A DNA stretch of 64,000 bases, from positions 1,488,001 through 1,552,000 of the forward strand of contig NZ_AP021861.1 in NCBI RefSeq assembly GCF_009177095.1. Direction: 5' to 3'. The notes under the pieces are model-generated. The model was not told where the DNA came from and did not search any database. It saw only the letters and a program-made list of their open reading frames with translations. This stretch comes from Lacipirellula parvula. GTDB taxonomy: Bacteria > Planctomycetota > Planctomycetia > Pirellulales > Lacipirellulaceae. Made by a program: the position numbers and the translations under genes. Each line of letters begins with the position of its first letter. Within the stretch, counting starts at the first letter, position 1. Shown piece after piece: positions 787-6,405 of the stretch.

Positions 787-850
787 CTTTGCGCCTTTGC
801 GCCTTTGCGTGAGAATCTTCTAGATCACATCTCACGCAAAGGCGCAAAGA
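787..850. repeat. Inverted-repeat element, CTTTGCGCC family, upstream of valS
   Basis: The left arm CTTTGCGCCTTTGCGTGAGA (795-814) is the exact reverse complement of the right arm at 830-849, with a 15-base spacer. An extra CTTTGCGC unit precedes the left arm. The same arms recur around 26070-26149, 27272-27300 and 28140-28209, so this is a dispersed family. The valS frame happens to be open through it, which creates a false upstream start at 778. Confidence 0.85.
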
Positions 851-876: not shown

Positions 877-3800
877 ATGAGCGACGATTCCCTCTCCGCC
901 GCCGGCGAACTCCCCTCGCAGTACGACCACGAAGGCGCCCAGCGGCGTTGGTATAAGGTTTGGGAACAGCGCGGCTATTTTCATGCTGAGCCCGGCGCCA
1001 AAGATAAGGACGGCAAAGTAAAACCGCCATACACGATCGTCATCCCGCCGCCGAACGTCACGGGCGCCCTCCACCTCGGCCACGCCCTCAACAACACGCT
1101 GCAAGACATCCTCATTCGCATGAAGCGGATGCAAGGGTTCAACGCCCTCTGGATGCCGGGGACCGACCACGCGGGGATCGCCACCCAGGCGGTCGTCGAG
1201 CGGCGGTTGCTCGAAGAGCAAAAGCTGTCGCGGCACGACCTCGGCCGCGAAGGGCTCATCGAAAAAATCTGGGAATGGAAGGCCCAGTACGAAAAGCGGA
1301 TCATCGGCCAGCTGAAGCAGATCGGCTGCAGCTGCGACTGGGAGCGGCTGCGGTTCACGCTCGACGAGACGTGCGCGCGGGCGGTCCGCGAGACGTTCTT
1401 CCGTCTGTTCCAAGATGGAAAAATCTACCGCGGCAAGCGGCTCGTCAATTGGGATACCTATCTGCAAACGGCCGTCAGCGACGATGAGGTCTTCAAGGAA
1501 CCGGTGAAGGGCCACTTCTGGCATTTCAAGTACCCGGTGGTGAAGGATGCGAAGTGGAAAAAGGGCGAGCCCGAGTTCGTCACGATCGCCACGACGCGGC
1601 CCGAGACGATGCTCGGCGACACGGCGGTGGCAGTGCACCCCGACCCGGCGGCGGCGTTCGATAAGGTCGGCGCCGAATTGCGCGAGCGGATGCTCGCCGC
1701 GCCGGCCAAAGAAAAAGGTGCCCTCGAAGAGGAGGCGACGCTGCTGCTCGAACGCCGCGCGCGGATGCTCCCGCATCTCGAAACGCTGCGCGACATGGCG
1801 CAGCGGGGCGTGATGCTGGAACTCCCCCTCACCGGTCGCCAGATTCCGCTCATCGCCGACGAATGGGCGAAGCCGGAGCTTGGTTCGGGCTGCGTGAAGA
1901 TCACGCCGGCCCACGACGAGAACGACTACGCGGTTTGGCAGCGGAATCTCGAAATCGGCGCGATCAATATCATGACGCCTGATGGAAAGCTTAACGAAAA
2001 TGCGCCGAAGCATTTTCGAGGTATGAGTATGAAACAAGGCCGCCAGCAAGTGCTTGATGAACTTGAGATGGCGGGGCTCTACAATCCAGAGACCGATTGC
2101 GAAGATCGGGAAATCGAACTCCCGCACAGCGATCGCTCAAAGACGCCGATTGAGCCATACCTAGCGGATCAGTGGTTCGTGAAGATGGACGAGCTCGCTC
2201 AATCAGCGATGGATGCCGTTACTGATGGGCGTGTGAAGATCACGCCCGAGAGGTATGGGAAAACGTATCTCGATTGGCTCGGCGAGAAACGCGACTGGCC
2301 AATCGGTCGTCAGCTTTGGTGGGGCCATCGAATTCCGGTATGGCATATTCGTTGGTGTGATCGGAGTGTTCTTGAAAAGGCTTTCGATGGGCGGAATGAC
2401 ATCTTTTGGAATGAGGGTTATGAGAAGGGGTGGTGGTTCCTCAGTTCATCCACCGATCTAACGCATCTCGACGAAACTCGATTGGAAGCGCTGGCAGAGG
2501 AATCTAAGCCAGGTGGTAAGTTCGCAATTACTAGAGAAGAGGACGTTCTCGACACCTGGTTTTCCTCCGCCCTCTGGCCCCACTCCACCCTCGGCTGGCC
2601 AGACGAAACGCCCGAACTGAAGGCCTTCTACCCCACGACCGCGCTGGTCACTAGCCGCGACATCATCACCCTCTGGGTCGCGCGGATGGTGCTGACCGGC
2701 CGCTACAACATGGGCGAGGTGCCGTTCTCCAGCGTCTACATTCACCCCAAGATTCTCGACGGCTACGGCGAGACGATGTCGAAGTCGAAGGGGAACGGCG
2801 TCGATCCGCTCGACGTGGTCGAGAAGTTCGGCGCCGACGCCCTGCGGTTCGGGCTGGCGTATCTTGCCACCGAAACGCAAGACGTGCGGATGCCGGTGGA
2901 GTTCGAATGCCCCCACTGCCAGACGCTGATCGCGCAGACGAAAAAGAATCGCACTCTCGTGCGGATCGAGTGCGACAAGTGCGGCAAGCCCTTCCGCACG
3001 CAATGGGCCGAATCGCACGGCACGGACGAGGACAAAGCCCTCGCCCGCGGCGCCGTGGTCAGCGACCGCTTCGAACTCGGCCGCCGCTTCTGCAATAAAC
3101 TGTGGAACGCGAGCCGCTTCTCGTTAATGAATTTGCAAAAAGCCGCGACCGGCGGTCGCGGTGCGGCGCCCGAAGATGCGACGACCGTTGGCGGTTCGAA
3201 TGCGAATGCGGGGACCGCGACCACCGGTCGCGGCTTTATTGAATTGACGTTGGAGGATCGTTGGTTGTTGTCGCGGTTGGCGACGGTGACCAATGAGGTG
3301 ACCGCGGCGATTGAATCCTATCAATTCGCAGACGCGGCGCGGTTGCTCTATGCCTTCGCTTGGAATGACTTCTGCGACTACTACGTCGAGATGACCAAGG
3401 CCCGGTTCGGCGTGCCGGAACAGCAGGAGACTGCGCAGCGGGTGCTCGCGCATGTCCTTGATGCGTTGTTGCGGTTGTTGCACCCGATGATTCCGTTTTT
3501 GACGGAAGAGGTTTGGCAGTTGCTCGGGCAGGTTGTGGAAGACCGGGGGCTTGAAGCCCCCGGCTCGCTGGGGAGCAAGGCTGCGGTTAGCGTTTGTATT
3601 GCGGATTGGCCGGTGGCGGATGCGTCGCGGATCGATGCGACGATTGAAACGCAATTCGCGGACTTTCAAGCCGTGCTCGGCGCCGTGCGCGAGTTGCGGA
3701 TGGGGCAGAATATCGCCCCGCGCGAAGCGGTTGAGTTCTCTGTCCGCTGCGACGAGGCGACGGCGAAACTGCTCGAACCGATGTCGCCCTACTTCCTGCA

Positions 3801-4125
3801 GATGGCGAAGGCGACCGCGCTCGCGTGGGGCCCGAAGGCTACAGCCCCGGAGACGGCCGCATCGAGCCAGGTGAACGGCGCCCGCGGCCCGATCGACGTT
3901 CATCTCGACGTCAGCCGCTTTATCGACGTCGAGGCCGAGAAGAAGCGGCTCACCAAGCAAATCGAGCAGTGGCAAGGTTTCGTGAAGTCGATGGAAGCAA
4001 AGCTCAACAATGAGAGCTTCGTCAGCCGCGCGCCGGCCGAGGTGGTGCAGCAGCAGAGGGACAAACTCGTCGAAACGAAGGGCCTCATCGAATCGGCCCA
4101 GGCGTCGCTGAAGAAGCTTGGGTAG
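877..4125 (+). CDS. valS: Valine--tRNA ligase
   Basis: Charges tRNA-Val in the cytoplasm. About 1082 residues, longer than the roughly 950 of E. coli ValRS. Class I signatures are present: PPPNVTGALHLGH (HIGH-type) near residue 60 and MSKSKGNG (KMSKS-type) near residue 634, followed by the anticodon-binding region (FCNKLWNASRF) and a C-terminal coiled-coil arm ending in SRAPAEVVQQQRDKL. ATG 877 is chosen over 778 because the longer version would translate a repeat element. Three insertions are notable: a CPHC...CDKC zinc ribbon (about residues 677-706), a 33-residue in-frame palindromic element (755-787), and a hairpin-encoded GLEAP stretch near residue 889. The catalytic motifs are intact, so the enzyme should work. 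Confidence 0.97.
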   Translation: MSDDSLSAAGELPSQYDHEGAQRRWYKVWEQRGYFHAEPGAKDKDGKVKPPYTIVIPPPNVTGALHLGHALNNTLQDILIRMKRMQGFNALWMPGTDHAGIATQAVVERRLLEEQKLSRHDLGREGLIEKIWEWKAQYEKRIIGQLKQIGCSCDWERLRFTLDETCARAVRETFFRLFQDGKIYRGKRLVNWDTYLQTAVSDDEVFKEPVKGHFWHFKYPVVKDAKWKKGEPEFVTIATTRPETMLGDTAVAVHPDPAAAFDKVGAELRERMLAAPAKEKGALEEEATLLLERRARMLPHLETLRDMAQRGVMLELPLTGRQIPLIADEWAKPELGSGCVKITPAHDENDYAVWQRNLEIGAINIMTPDGKLNENAPKHFRGMSMKQGRQQVLDELEMAGLYNPETDCEDREIELPHSDRSKTPIEPYLADQWFVKMDELAQSAMDAVTDGRVKITPERYGKTYLDWLGEKRDWPIGRQLWWGHRIPVWHIRWCDRSVLEKAFDGRNDIFWNEGYEKGWWFLSSSTDLTHLDETRLEALAEESKPGGKFAITREEDVLDTWFSSALWPHSTLGWPDETPELKAFYPTTALVTSRDIITLWVARMVLTGRYNMGEVPFSSVYIHPKILDGYGETMSKSKGNGVDPLDVVEKFGADALRFGLAYLATETQDVRMPVEFECPHCQTLIAQTKKNRTLVRIECDKCGKPFRTQWAESHGTDEDKALARGAVVSDRFELGRRFCNKLWNASRFSLMNLQKAATGGRGAAPEDATTVGGSNANAGTATTGRGFIELTLEDRWLLSRLATVTNEVTAAIESYQFADAARLLYAFAWNDFCDYYVEMTKARFGVPEQQETAQRVLAHVLDALLRLLHPMIPFLTEEVWQLLGQVVEDRGLEAPGSLGSKAAVSVCIADWPVADASRIDATIETQFADFQAVLGAVRELRMGQNIAPREAVEFSVRCDEATAKLLEPMSPYFLQMAKATALAWGPKATAPETAASSQVNGARGPIDVHLDVSRFIDVEAEKKRLTKQIEQWQGFVKSMEAKLNNESFVSRAPAEVVQQQRDKLVETKGLIESAQASLKKLG
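3139..3237. repeat. 99-bp palindromic element in frame inside valS
   Basis: A 23-base arm at 3139-3161 (core GCCGCGACCGGCGGTCGCGG) is mirrored at 3215-3237 with one mismatch, around a 53-base spacer. The total is 99 bases, exactly 33 codons, and starts on a codon boundary. It encodes a low-complexity Ala/Thr/Gly-rich stretch between the conserved NASRF and LEDRW blocks of ValRS, where the E. coli protein has a much shorter linker (from memory). Confidence 0.8.
3543..3563. repeat. 21-bp perfect hairpin inside valS
   Basis: CCGGGGGCTT-G-AAGCCCCCGG is a perfect palindrome with 10-base arms. It matches the core of the intergenic hairpin at 19471-19490 (CCGGGGGCTT, then CCCCCGG). In valS it encodes part of DRGLEAPGSLG, in the linker after FLTEEVWQLL. 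Confidence 0.75.
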
Positions 4126-4323: not shown

Positions 4324-6405
4324 ATGTCTTCTCGATCGTTATTGGCCGCGCTGGCCCTGGTTTTCGCGCTTTGTTCTGCTGCCGCCCGGCCTGCTCAGGC
4401 CGAGACGCGCACCTGGACCGACAGCACTGGCAAACACAAGATCGAGGCCGAGTTCGTCGAGATCTTCGAAGGCAAAGTGAAGCTCAAGCTTCCGGATGGG
4501 AAGATGGTGTCGCTCTCGCTGGCGAAGCTTAGCCGCGAAGACCAGCTGCACTTGAAGCAGGTGCTGAAGGAGCGCCGTGAGGGGGCGGCTGGCGGCGGTG
4601 GCGGTGCATCGGGACCGGCGAGCGCGATGCGAGCCAATGCGAAAGCAGCGCCGTTCAAGAAGGGAGATCGGATTGTTCAGGAGTGGGGGGGCGAAATCAC
4701 CCTGGGAACCGTCGTCGGCATCGATCCTTCTAGCGGTTGGGTGCAGGTTGTGATGGATGGCGCCGCGCCAGGAGCGAAGCCAAAGATGAGCCCTGCCAGC
4801 AGCTTCAAGCTCTACGACGCGAAGATGGAAGCGATCCTTCCGCAAGCCGGCTGGAGTTGGACTCCGCCGGCGATGAAGCCGGCCGTGGCGGCTGATTACG
4901 CGTCGGTTCGTCGTCCCGCCGCGGTGGCGACCGCAGCGAGCGTCACGCCCGATCCCGCGCCAACTTCCGCTTCGGTAACTGGCGCCAAGACGGTCGTGCT
5001 GCCGTTGCCGATGGGCTACTACGACAAACGCATGGCGCTGGCGATTACTGGCGGCGCGCAGCCGCGTGCGCTCGCGCTGCACCGCGGCGGCAAGGAGATG
5101 AACGCGGTCGATAGTCGCATCGAGGTGCTCGATCTCGTCACAGGCGAGCGGCTGCCGACGCTCTCCGCAGCGGCCAAAAGCGGCGCCTTGTGGGCGGCGC
5201 CTAGCGGCAAACTCCTCCTGACGGGCGAAGGCTTCGGGGCCTGGAACGACAGCTCGCACCTGCATCTCTGGGAACTCGGAGACAAAAATCTCGTCCACCT
5301 CCTCAGCTTCCAACCATACGGAAACGCCGAAGCGAAGAAGGTGAAGTGGGTTCGCTGGCTCGACGACCAGCGGTTCATCACCCGCAGCGAAAAAGATGTC
5401 TTCGTCATCTGGAACGCCGCCGATGCGAAGGCGATCGCCGAGTTTACGCGCGAGTGGTCTGGCGAGCCGGCGGTCAGCCCCGGCGGGAAACAGATCGCGT
5501 TCGCAACGTCGAAGGGAATCGAGATCTTCTCGACGACCAACGGCGATCACCTCGCAACGATCCCTGCGAGCGACGATTGGCGAGATGCACTCGCGTTTTC
5601 GCCGGGGGGCGAGCGTTTGGCCGTGGTTGGCGAGCGCGGCATTAAGATCATCGATCTCACGACGGGGAAGCCCTACTCGGAATTCTTCGTTGGCGGCGTT
5701 CGCGGGGGAACCTGGCTCGACAATCGGTACCTTATGGCTAACGACGGTTTGGTGATCGATACGCAATCGATGTGCGTGCTGTGGAAATACTTCGGCGCAG
5801 AGCTTTTGGGGGCGCCCGGAGGCCAGCGATGGGCCCTCATCGCGCCCGCGACCGGGCAGGGGAAGAGCGAGACAATTGCGCCAGTGAGCTTGCCGCACCC
5901 AGCGGCGATCGCCGCGACCCCGACAGCGGCGGAAGCCTTGGCGCTGAAGCCGGGCGATGCAGTGGCGATTGACGTGACGGCAGTTGATTCCACGATTGCC
6001 GCCGAAGCTCGCCTGGCGATCGAGAAGCAGTTGAACGCGGCCGGGTTCAAGGCTGCTGACAGTGCGCCGGTGAAGATCGTGGCGACCAACCGACCAGGCG
6101 AAGCGCAAGAAATGAATTACCGCACCTTCGGCATCGGGGGCCAGGTTGAGAAGTTCAGCGTGAACACGTTGTACTACGAATTGGCCCTAGTGGCGGGAGG
6201 CGAGGAACTCTGGAAGTATTCCAATCTGCATCGTCCGCCGTCCATGGTGAGCCTCAAGGAAGGCGAGTCGATGCAACAGATCGTGGCGCAGGAGATGGCG
6301 CTGAAAGCAGCACATTTCGACGTGCCGATTCCGACGAACATCGTGGGGCGTGCCGGACGCGAGTCGCGGGGAGTCTCAGAGATCACCGCCAGCGGCGTGA
6401 AGTAG
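4324..6405 (+). CDS. Secreted SHD1-domain protein with beta-propeller-like repeats
   Basis: 693 residues. The N-terminus is a signal peptide (LLAALALVFALCSAAARPAQAE). Residues about 28-80 (TWTDSTGKHKIEAEFVEIFEGKVKLKLPDG, split by GKM and then LSLAKLSREDQ) match the SHD1 (Sla1 homology 1) domain that is expanded in planctomycete exported proteins. Residues about 220-520 contain WD40/YVTN-like blades (LTGEGFGAWNDSSHLHLWEL, SPGGKQIAFATSKGIEIF, SPGGERLAVVGERGIKIIDL). The last about 170 residues form another folded domain I do not recognise. The product is probably periplasmic; its ligand is unknown. A TATACT hexamer at 4220-4225 could be a -10 element, but no good -35 is seen. Confidence 0.85.
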   Translation: MSSRSLLAALALVFALCSAAARPAQAETRTWTDSTGKHKIEAEFVEIFEGKVKLKLPDGKMVSLSLAKLSREDQLHLKQVLKERREGAAGGGGGASGPASAMRANAKAAPFKKGDRIVQEWGGEITLGTVVGIDPSSGWVQVVMDGAAPGAKPKMSPASSFKLYDAKMEAILPQAGWSWTPPAMKPAVAADYASVRRPAAVATAASVTPDPAPTSASVTGAKTVVLPLPMGYYDKRMALAITGGAQPRALALHRGGKEMNAVDSRIEVLDLVTGERLPTLSAAAKSGALWAAPSGKLLLTGEGFGAWNDSSHLHLWELGDKNLVHLLSFQPYGNAEAKKVKWVRWLDDQRFITRSEKDVFVIWNAADAKAIAEFTREWSGEPAVSPGGKQIAFATSKGIEIFSTTNGDHLATIPASDDWRDALAFSPGGERLAVVGERGIKIIDLTTGKPYSEFFVGGVRGGTWLDNRYLMANDGLVIDTQSMCVLWKYFGAELLGAPGGQRWALIAPATGQGKSETIAPVSLPHPAAIAATPTAAEALALKPGDAVAIDVTAVDSTIAAEARLAIEKQLNAAGFKAADSAPVKIVATNRPGEAQEMNYRTFGIGGQVEKFSVNTLYYELALVAGGEELWKYSNLHRPPSMVSLKEGESMQQIVAQEMALKAAHFDVPIPTNIVGRAGRESRGVSEITASGVK

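Follow-up and report, generated by a model that had tools for sequence, protein, structure and literature searches.

A REPIN in frame in the valyl-tRNA synthetase gene of Lacipirellula parvula, and protein loops where selfish DNA seems to land repeatedly

The DNA considered here (the window, meaning the whole analysed stretch of 64,000 nucleotides) carries on its plus strand, at positions 877 to 4125, the gene valS, encoding a valine–tRNA ligase (ValRS) of 1082 amino acids, as identified from the ORF list, NCBIfam and Pfam. The match to NCBIfam PRK05729 reaches 1020 bits, where the cut-off is 704, and the Pfam domains found in the product are tRNA-synt_1, Anticodon_1 and Val_tRNA-synt_C. The gene probably begins at the ATG at 877, which was picked by codon score, the longest open reading frame beginning at a TTG at 778. 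Just 5′ of this ATG lies a perfect palindrome (window 795–849, with 20-nt arms CTTTGCGCCTTTGCGTGAGA and a 15-nt loop), unrelated to the element described below; since the frame from TTG 778 reads through it, the longer start is probably wrong. As far as was found, valS is single-copy in its genome (G000, 6.92 Mb in one contig), the two further matches to it there being a 26%-identical stretch in a 1147-aa frame and another copy of the repeat described below.

The part of ValRS that is of concern here is a loop between two conserved blocks. Before it stands the helix FELGRRFCNKLWNASRFSLMNL (residues 732–753, 3070 to 3135, plus strand), and past it the stretch that begins LTLEDRWLLSRL (residues 790–813, 3244 to 3315, plus strand), both conserved in alignments and appearing as helices 730–753 and 792–813 in a structural model; the Pfam Anticodon_1 match begins at residue 794. 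The model, from AlphaFold2 with 26 sequences, has a mean pLDDT of 69.9 and a pTM of 0.50, such that only its local picture is used. In this picture residues 757–786 have pLDDT values below 50 between two confident helices, and the loop is predicted to be disordered. In the ValRS of T. thermophilus there are about 10 residues at this position. The dN/dS of valS between G000 and its sister species, G004, is 0.05 downstream of the element and 0.15 upstream, and on these ratios the flanks of the element are under purifying selection.

The element itself occupies 3139 to 3237 on the plus strand and was delimited by repeat search, folding and alignment. It is 99 nt long, begins on a codon boundary and, counted from ATG 877, takes up codons 755–787, exactly the 33 in-frame residues that a preliminary description of this DNA had given. 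The near-perfect inverted repeats which that description placed at its ends are indeed near-perfect (96% complementary), but are 24 nt long rather than 23, and stand 51 nt apart. The left arm (3139 to 3162, plus strand) is made of an AAAG tag followed by the palindrome CCGCGACC-GGC-GGTCGCGG and translates as KAATGGRG, while the right arm (3214 to 3237) is inverted, lying on the minus strand, and reads TATTGRGF on the strand of valS. In other words, each arm is itself a 19-nt palindrome of the form CCGCGACC-NNN-GGTCGCGG with AAAG before it. The 51 nt between the arms (3163 to 3213, plus strand) are fast-evolving, differing from G004 by a 24-nt indel and at 7 of 53 aligned positions, and the whole element is devoid of stop codons in all six frames. 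Its RNA fold comes to −65.6 kcal/mol (z −5.3) and its DNA fold has a z of −5.8, none of 200 shuffles being as stable in either case; its single strand folds into one hairpin, as befits an inverted pair of the REPIN type, and its inverted-repeat score is 21, with a maximum of 8 among 60 shuffles. It is a REPIN, in which two REPs with the tag A-N-AAAG stand in inverted orientation to each other.

REPs are by name extragenic, and the family to which the valS arms belong is for the most part just that. The sequence AAAGCCGCGACC occurs 50 times in the G000 genome against 4 times for its reversed control, and a scan of the fetched stretches of that genome gave 50 REP arms at 39 sites, the two sets of 50 being overlapping but non-identical, with some of the tag matches having no palindrome. 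Ten of the 39 sites are paired or clustered and 29 are single. Thirty lie outside called genes, to be set against the roughly 84% of the window that is called coding, the gene calls near the copies coming from a simple codon-score script rather than from curated annotation. A profile of 107 arms from four genomes has the A-N-AAAG tag and both stem halves nearly invariant and two of the three central bases variable; the terminal tetranucleotides GTAG and CGTC are both absent from the family, which is tagged with AAAG and linked to a transposase gene.

This transposase is a RAYT, a 165-aa protein of the Y1_Tnp type encoded at G000:C1:3206010-3206507 between two REPINs, one of which (3205917-3206011) it abuts, the other (3206569-3206672) lying beyond its opposite side. 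It scores just above the Pfam cut-off for Y1_Tnp, and matches the NCBIfam model of the 'REP-associated tyrosine transposase' (NF047646) with an E value of 3e-8 and 33.7 bits, under the cut-off of 80; a PDB search with the protein gave 0 matches. H96-x-H98 and Y155, the presumed catalytic residues of this transposase family, are invariant in the three relatives aligned. A REPIN-flanked RAYT is found also in G004, where the copy is split across two frames, and in G045, from another genus, where the second arm is a variant. G052, which belongs to another family, has a RAYT of 55% identity that lies between REPs of a sister family and not between copies of the G000 REP. These sister REPs (locus L260, 1415-1433 and 2037-2055) have the form AAAG followed by CCGCCGAT-NNN-ATCGGCGG.

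Tag matches were scanned in 59 genomes and the RAYT was sought in 12 of them. In the four with a RAYT of at least 55% identity the exact matches to the tag number 50, 32, 15 and 58 (against 4, 4, 0 and 7 for the reversed control), and the eight with no RAYT match have 1, 1, 6, 27, 5, 4, 9 and 11 (controls 5, 11, 3, 6, 5, 2, 3 and 7). The presence of a RAYT tracks REP number in G000, G004, G045 and G052 (there with the sister palindrome), and G005, whose 82%-complete assembly gave 27 exact matches and no close RAYT, is either an exception or an assembly gap. No close RAYT was found in G003, a member of the same genus as G000. Exact REP cores number 34 of 39 in G004 and 5 of 11 in G003 (P 0.008), while the in-gene arms of G003 differ from those of G000 at 8 of 92 nt and those of G004 at 2 of 92 (P 0.10); that loss of the RAYT lies behind a decay of REPs in G003 is suggestive only.

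The valS gene was compared with that of 28 other genomes, in two of which (G002 and G005) the loop was unreadable. The element is present in G000 and G004 and absent from all 25 other readable relatives, among them G003. Measured between NL and the LxLEDRW motif, the loop has 36 residues in G000 and 41 in G004; in the element-free relatives it has 12 residues in 19 cases (12 of these measured and 7 read off the alignment) and 14, 15, 19, 24, 26 or 32 in the others. The 33-residue segment is thus not one that is conserved in palindrome-free relatives. A look-alike hairpin, short and of the form AAGCCGCGACTT...AAGTCGC, is seen in the ValRS loop of G011 (L103); it might be a decayed REP, and G011 is counted here as element-free. 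The preliminary description had looked for a precise absence of 99 bases with intact flanks, an expectation that the alignments of valS do not bear out: no clean empty site of this kind was found among the 28 other genomes for valS, nor among 13 for uvrA, the loops being too variable for an exact definition. Without an empty site that lacks the element and nothing else, insertion is inferred from presence and absence within a variable loop, and, since the loops of relatives are shorter by varying lengths, the element occupies the place of loop sequence rather than making a clean 99-bp addition. What does stand from the preliminary description is that a dispersed, lineage-specific palindromic element lies in frame in a variable linker of an essential enzyme.

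Could the loop nevertheless be an ordinary Ala/Gly-rich linker, palindromic by chance or by codon bias? Such loops do vary naturally in length and composition, yet this account is hardly credible when the same sequence has 50 matches in the genome against 4 for the control, when no shuffle is as stable, and when the element is missing from 25 readable relatives. A chance palindrome is ruled out by copy number, by fold stability and by the inverted-repeat score relative to shuffles. It might also be asked whether the two arms arrived together, since two single REPs could have been acquired in separate events, one at each end of the native loop, making the middle 51 nt the old ValRS loop. Single REPs do outnumber pairs in the genome, and in G052 this same loop of ValRS contains one REP by itself; against this, only Gln and Ile-Glu are left outside the arms, the middle 51 nt have no evident likeness to other ValRS loops, and the element aligns by BLAST along its length with four other REPINs at 73–75% identity, even if the arms give most of the score. 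Separate entry is therefore judged quite improbable, and arrival as a REPIN is the reading followed below.

A search for copies of the arms elsewhere in the genome, and in other ORFs, had been suggested, and such copies exist. Seven genes of G000 with REPs in frame are relied on here: valS, a UvrA-type gene, a DnaA-like gene (Pfam Bac_DnaA and Bac_DnaA_C), one for an 855-aa, presumably VWA-like membrane protein without a Pfam match, a PQQ-repeat gene, one presumably SbcC-like, this name lacking a supporting Pfam match, and one for a 205-aa protein of no assigned family. Two more of the nine in-gene sites fall outside these seven, L070 (C-terminal, with 2 mismatches) and L071 (3 mismatches and no real palindrome). 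The UvrA-type protein (L065) lies within a giant open frame of 2505 codons that contains repeated UvrA units. Only valS is clearly essential among the seven, because the genome holds other UvrA-like frames (two, of 962 and 974 codons) and another DnaA-like frame (509 codons). In G004, an incomplete genome, six of the seven genes have a REP in the same place, and for the seventh no close UvrA orthologue was found. REPs of the DnaA-like, VWA-like and SbcC-like genes recur in G003 as well, the PQQ-repeat and 205-aa genes being outside the G003 comparison. Ten intergenic REP loci also have REP-bearing counterparts in G004, such that long persistence is not peculiar to the in-gene copies.

Beyond these close relatives, 44 regions were fetched from G052 and 8 each from G045 and G034; of their arms, 9 of 57, 2 of 11 and 2 of 8, respectively, are in genes. 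The two in-gene arms of G045 make up a REPIN, which lies in the UvrA loop that is also occupied in G000, and the single REP in ValRS of G052 has already been mentioned; both are regarded as hits independent of those in G000. Further in-gene REPs occur in G052 in genes for a Glx-tRNA ligase and a ClpB-type protein, and in G034 in PheT. In total, four of 26 in-gene events are in tRNA synthetase genes, and 13 of the 26 are read in the frame that gives KAAT-x-GR (binomial P 9e-5 against an expectation of 1/6), the 26 including L070, L071, L222, L223 and L282. The probability that two genes are shared by chance is between 8e-5 and 0.01 from a crude, post hoc Poisson estimate with guessed expectations of 0.013 to 0.15.

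The same loops are also occupied by palindromes of unrelated sequence. The ValRS loop of G016 contains an inverted repeat of 26 nt, and the UvrA loops of G005 and G001 contain ones of 26 and 25 nt, each of which outscores all 60 of its shuffles. In six other loops that were tested the inverted repeats are of 6–12 nt: those of ValRS in G010 and G011, of UvrA in G003 and of the DnaA-like protein in G002 are within the range of shuffles, and those of ValRS in G003 and the DnaA-like protein in G005 are one point above it. Among the matches listed, the UvrA-loop element of G001 (L173) is found at more than 30 places in each of G001 and G005, and the ValRS-loop element of G016 at five other places in G016. 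The UvrA-loop element of G005 recurs twice in its own genome and has a few matches in G000, G004, G002 and G016. The G016 and G005 elements consist of short repeated words, and some of their matches may reflect a likeness of simple sequence. The palindrome in the G001 UvrA loop is about 75 bp long, dispersed and, by eye, unrelated to the REP family. Protein loops of this kind seem to be places where selfish DNA lands again and again.

A separate question is why the in-gene copies have remained so recognisable. In six genes compared between G000 and G004, the arms show 4 silent differences at 52 sites and 1 replacement difference at 116, the flanking codons 852 at 1759 and 613 at 5411, a comparison that is biased in that the copies were recognised through their REP. 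Halving the rate, approximately, to allow for conditioning on one lineage gives P 5e-4 for the six genes. Restricted to the three of them with orthologues identified from protein alone, where 2 of 32 silent sites differ, the value is 0.004. In the comparison with G003 the arms have 3 differences at 26 silent sites and 3 at 58 replacement sites, and the flanks have 422 at 874 and 242 at 2588. In total, 5 of 184 nt of the in-gene arms differ between G004 and G000, and most of the in-gene changes affect the palindrome's central loop; intergenic arms common to the two genomes are, by eye, similarly conserved. From these sequence comparisons, the pattern points to the arms being maintained at the level of the DNA rather than for their peptide. 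Domestication of the element within the enzyme stays a proposal of the preliminary description; it is the DNA, not the peptide, that appears to be kept.

It could be, then, that the palindrome is retained for a role in DNA or RNA, for example as an mRNA hairpin or as a gyrase or replication-fork site, the peptide being a by-product. The low silent divergence of the in-gene arms relative to their flanks, the near-invariance of stem and tag about variable central bases and the resemblance of the intergenic arms would all accord with such a role. On the other hand, re-copying by the RAYT, or ascertainment on recognisable copies, could yield the same pattern, and the statistical case weakens under the adjusted rate given above; we regard this account as possible, if on the unlikely side. 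The VWA-like gene of G004 (L215 1807-1829) has a second, perfect 23-nt REP at a place where G000 and G003 have other sequence of the same length. Over these 23 bases G004 differs from G000 at 9 and from G003 at 11, compared with 38 and 32 of 193 in the flanks, and there are no gaps. In this one case, which comes from a metagenome assembly, the REP looks as if it arose by overwriting rather than by insertion. A bolder account, and a rather doubtful one, is that in these planctomycetes unrelated mobile palindromes have permanent places of entry in permissive loops of housekeeping proteins, and that REP copies, the in-gene ones among them, are kept intact in their DNA by continual rewriting, in which single-stranded REPs made by the RAYT would anneal to part-matching sites and overwrite them. 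If that were so, the second REP in the VWA-like gene of G004 would show such an overwrite as it happens.

The reading that we favour, and consider probable as a whole, is that an AAAG-tagged REPIN copied by a RAYT took over the ValRS loop in an ancestor common to G000 and G004, permissive loops being recurrent sites of landing or survival. The family would most likely be copied by the RAYT of the genome, acting as a single-strand transposase of the HUH/Tyr kind. A copy would have entered the variable loop that separates a conserved helix from the first helix of the anticodon-binding domain, and would have displaced most of the native loop. Since the valS copy has no stop in any frame, an insertion of fitting length and phase would, once translated, add only a flexible loop rich in Ala, Gly and Thr, which ValRS presumably tolerates without harm. 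The permissive loops of proteins that are hard to lose, ValRS above all and also the UvrA-type and DnaA-like proteins, may then be places where such copies repeatedly land or survive, and this may be why the same loops recur; any benefit to the host would come in addition.

These results find their closest counterparts among known palindromic repeats. In a search of the literature on REPINs and RAYTs, in-frame palindromes, planctomycete REPs and palindromes of valS or uvrA, the nearest precedent was PMC3733652 (Di Nocera 2013), whose list of target genes may include valS. Not found in print were an AAAG-tagged planctomycete REP with its RAYT, the reuse of ValRS and UvrA loops across lineages and by unrelated palindromes, or the near-frozen silent sites of in-gene arms. 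In-frame intragenic REPs as such are already known: the same paper describes REPs and REP dimers which contribute 20–30 residues in frame, many of them to replication and repair genes (uvrA included) and some to tRNA synthetases; its authors propose flexible linkers or loops, and Planctomycetes are among the carriers listed. What is added is a RAYT-linked REP family, in frame in ValRS, UvrA-type, DnaA-like and other proteins, that persists across species with its silent sites conserved. Natural replicates of this kind make testable why replication, repair and translation genes are recurrently hit, a question raised for other phyla in PMC3733652, and whether REPs persist by selection, re-copying or overwriting; and where some relatives have unrelated palindromes in these loops, there is a comparative experiment on protein segments gained from selfish DNA.

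The REPIN/RAYT systems described in PMC3116915 (Bertels and Rainey 2011) and PMC8266576 share with the present family the short palindromes, often in inverted pairs and mostly extragenic, and a tyrosine transposase gene flanked by copies. They differ in that the REP tag is GTAG (PMC3733652, PMC8266576) where here it is A-N-AAAG, in that some copies here are in housekeeping genes, and in the divergence of the present RAYT from the NCBIfam model. The Class 3 TnpA-Y1 proteins of Planctomycetes (PMC6006769), relatives of this transposase, have the foot CnGA and the motifs NHVH and Y----Q, unlike the RAYT here, with its foot AAAG and motifs TH-x-H and YI-x-RHN. With the Rickettsia palindromic elements (RPEs) of about 150 bp (PMC10969869, PMC3733652) the likeness is that of palindromes in frame in unrelated protein genes; those of R. 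conorii treated in PMC3733652 (RPE-4 and RPE-6) end in CGTC, and CGTC repeats are described there as having no dedicated transposase. An affinity to RPEs had been suggested for the valS element, and that identity is rejected on the AAAG tag and the linked RAYT gene, the two being set apart by the published description of RPEs rather than by sequence. Nearest of all are the intragenic GTAG/CGTC REPs of PMC3733652, which likewise have in-frame copies in uvrA and tRNA synthetase genes. That paper reports different REPs at about the same site once (recB, in two Xanthomonas) and otherwise at different sites; here the tag and family are other ones, silent-site conservation is measured, and two loops have been hit more than once, in different genera and families, and by unrelated palindromes as well.
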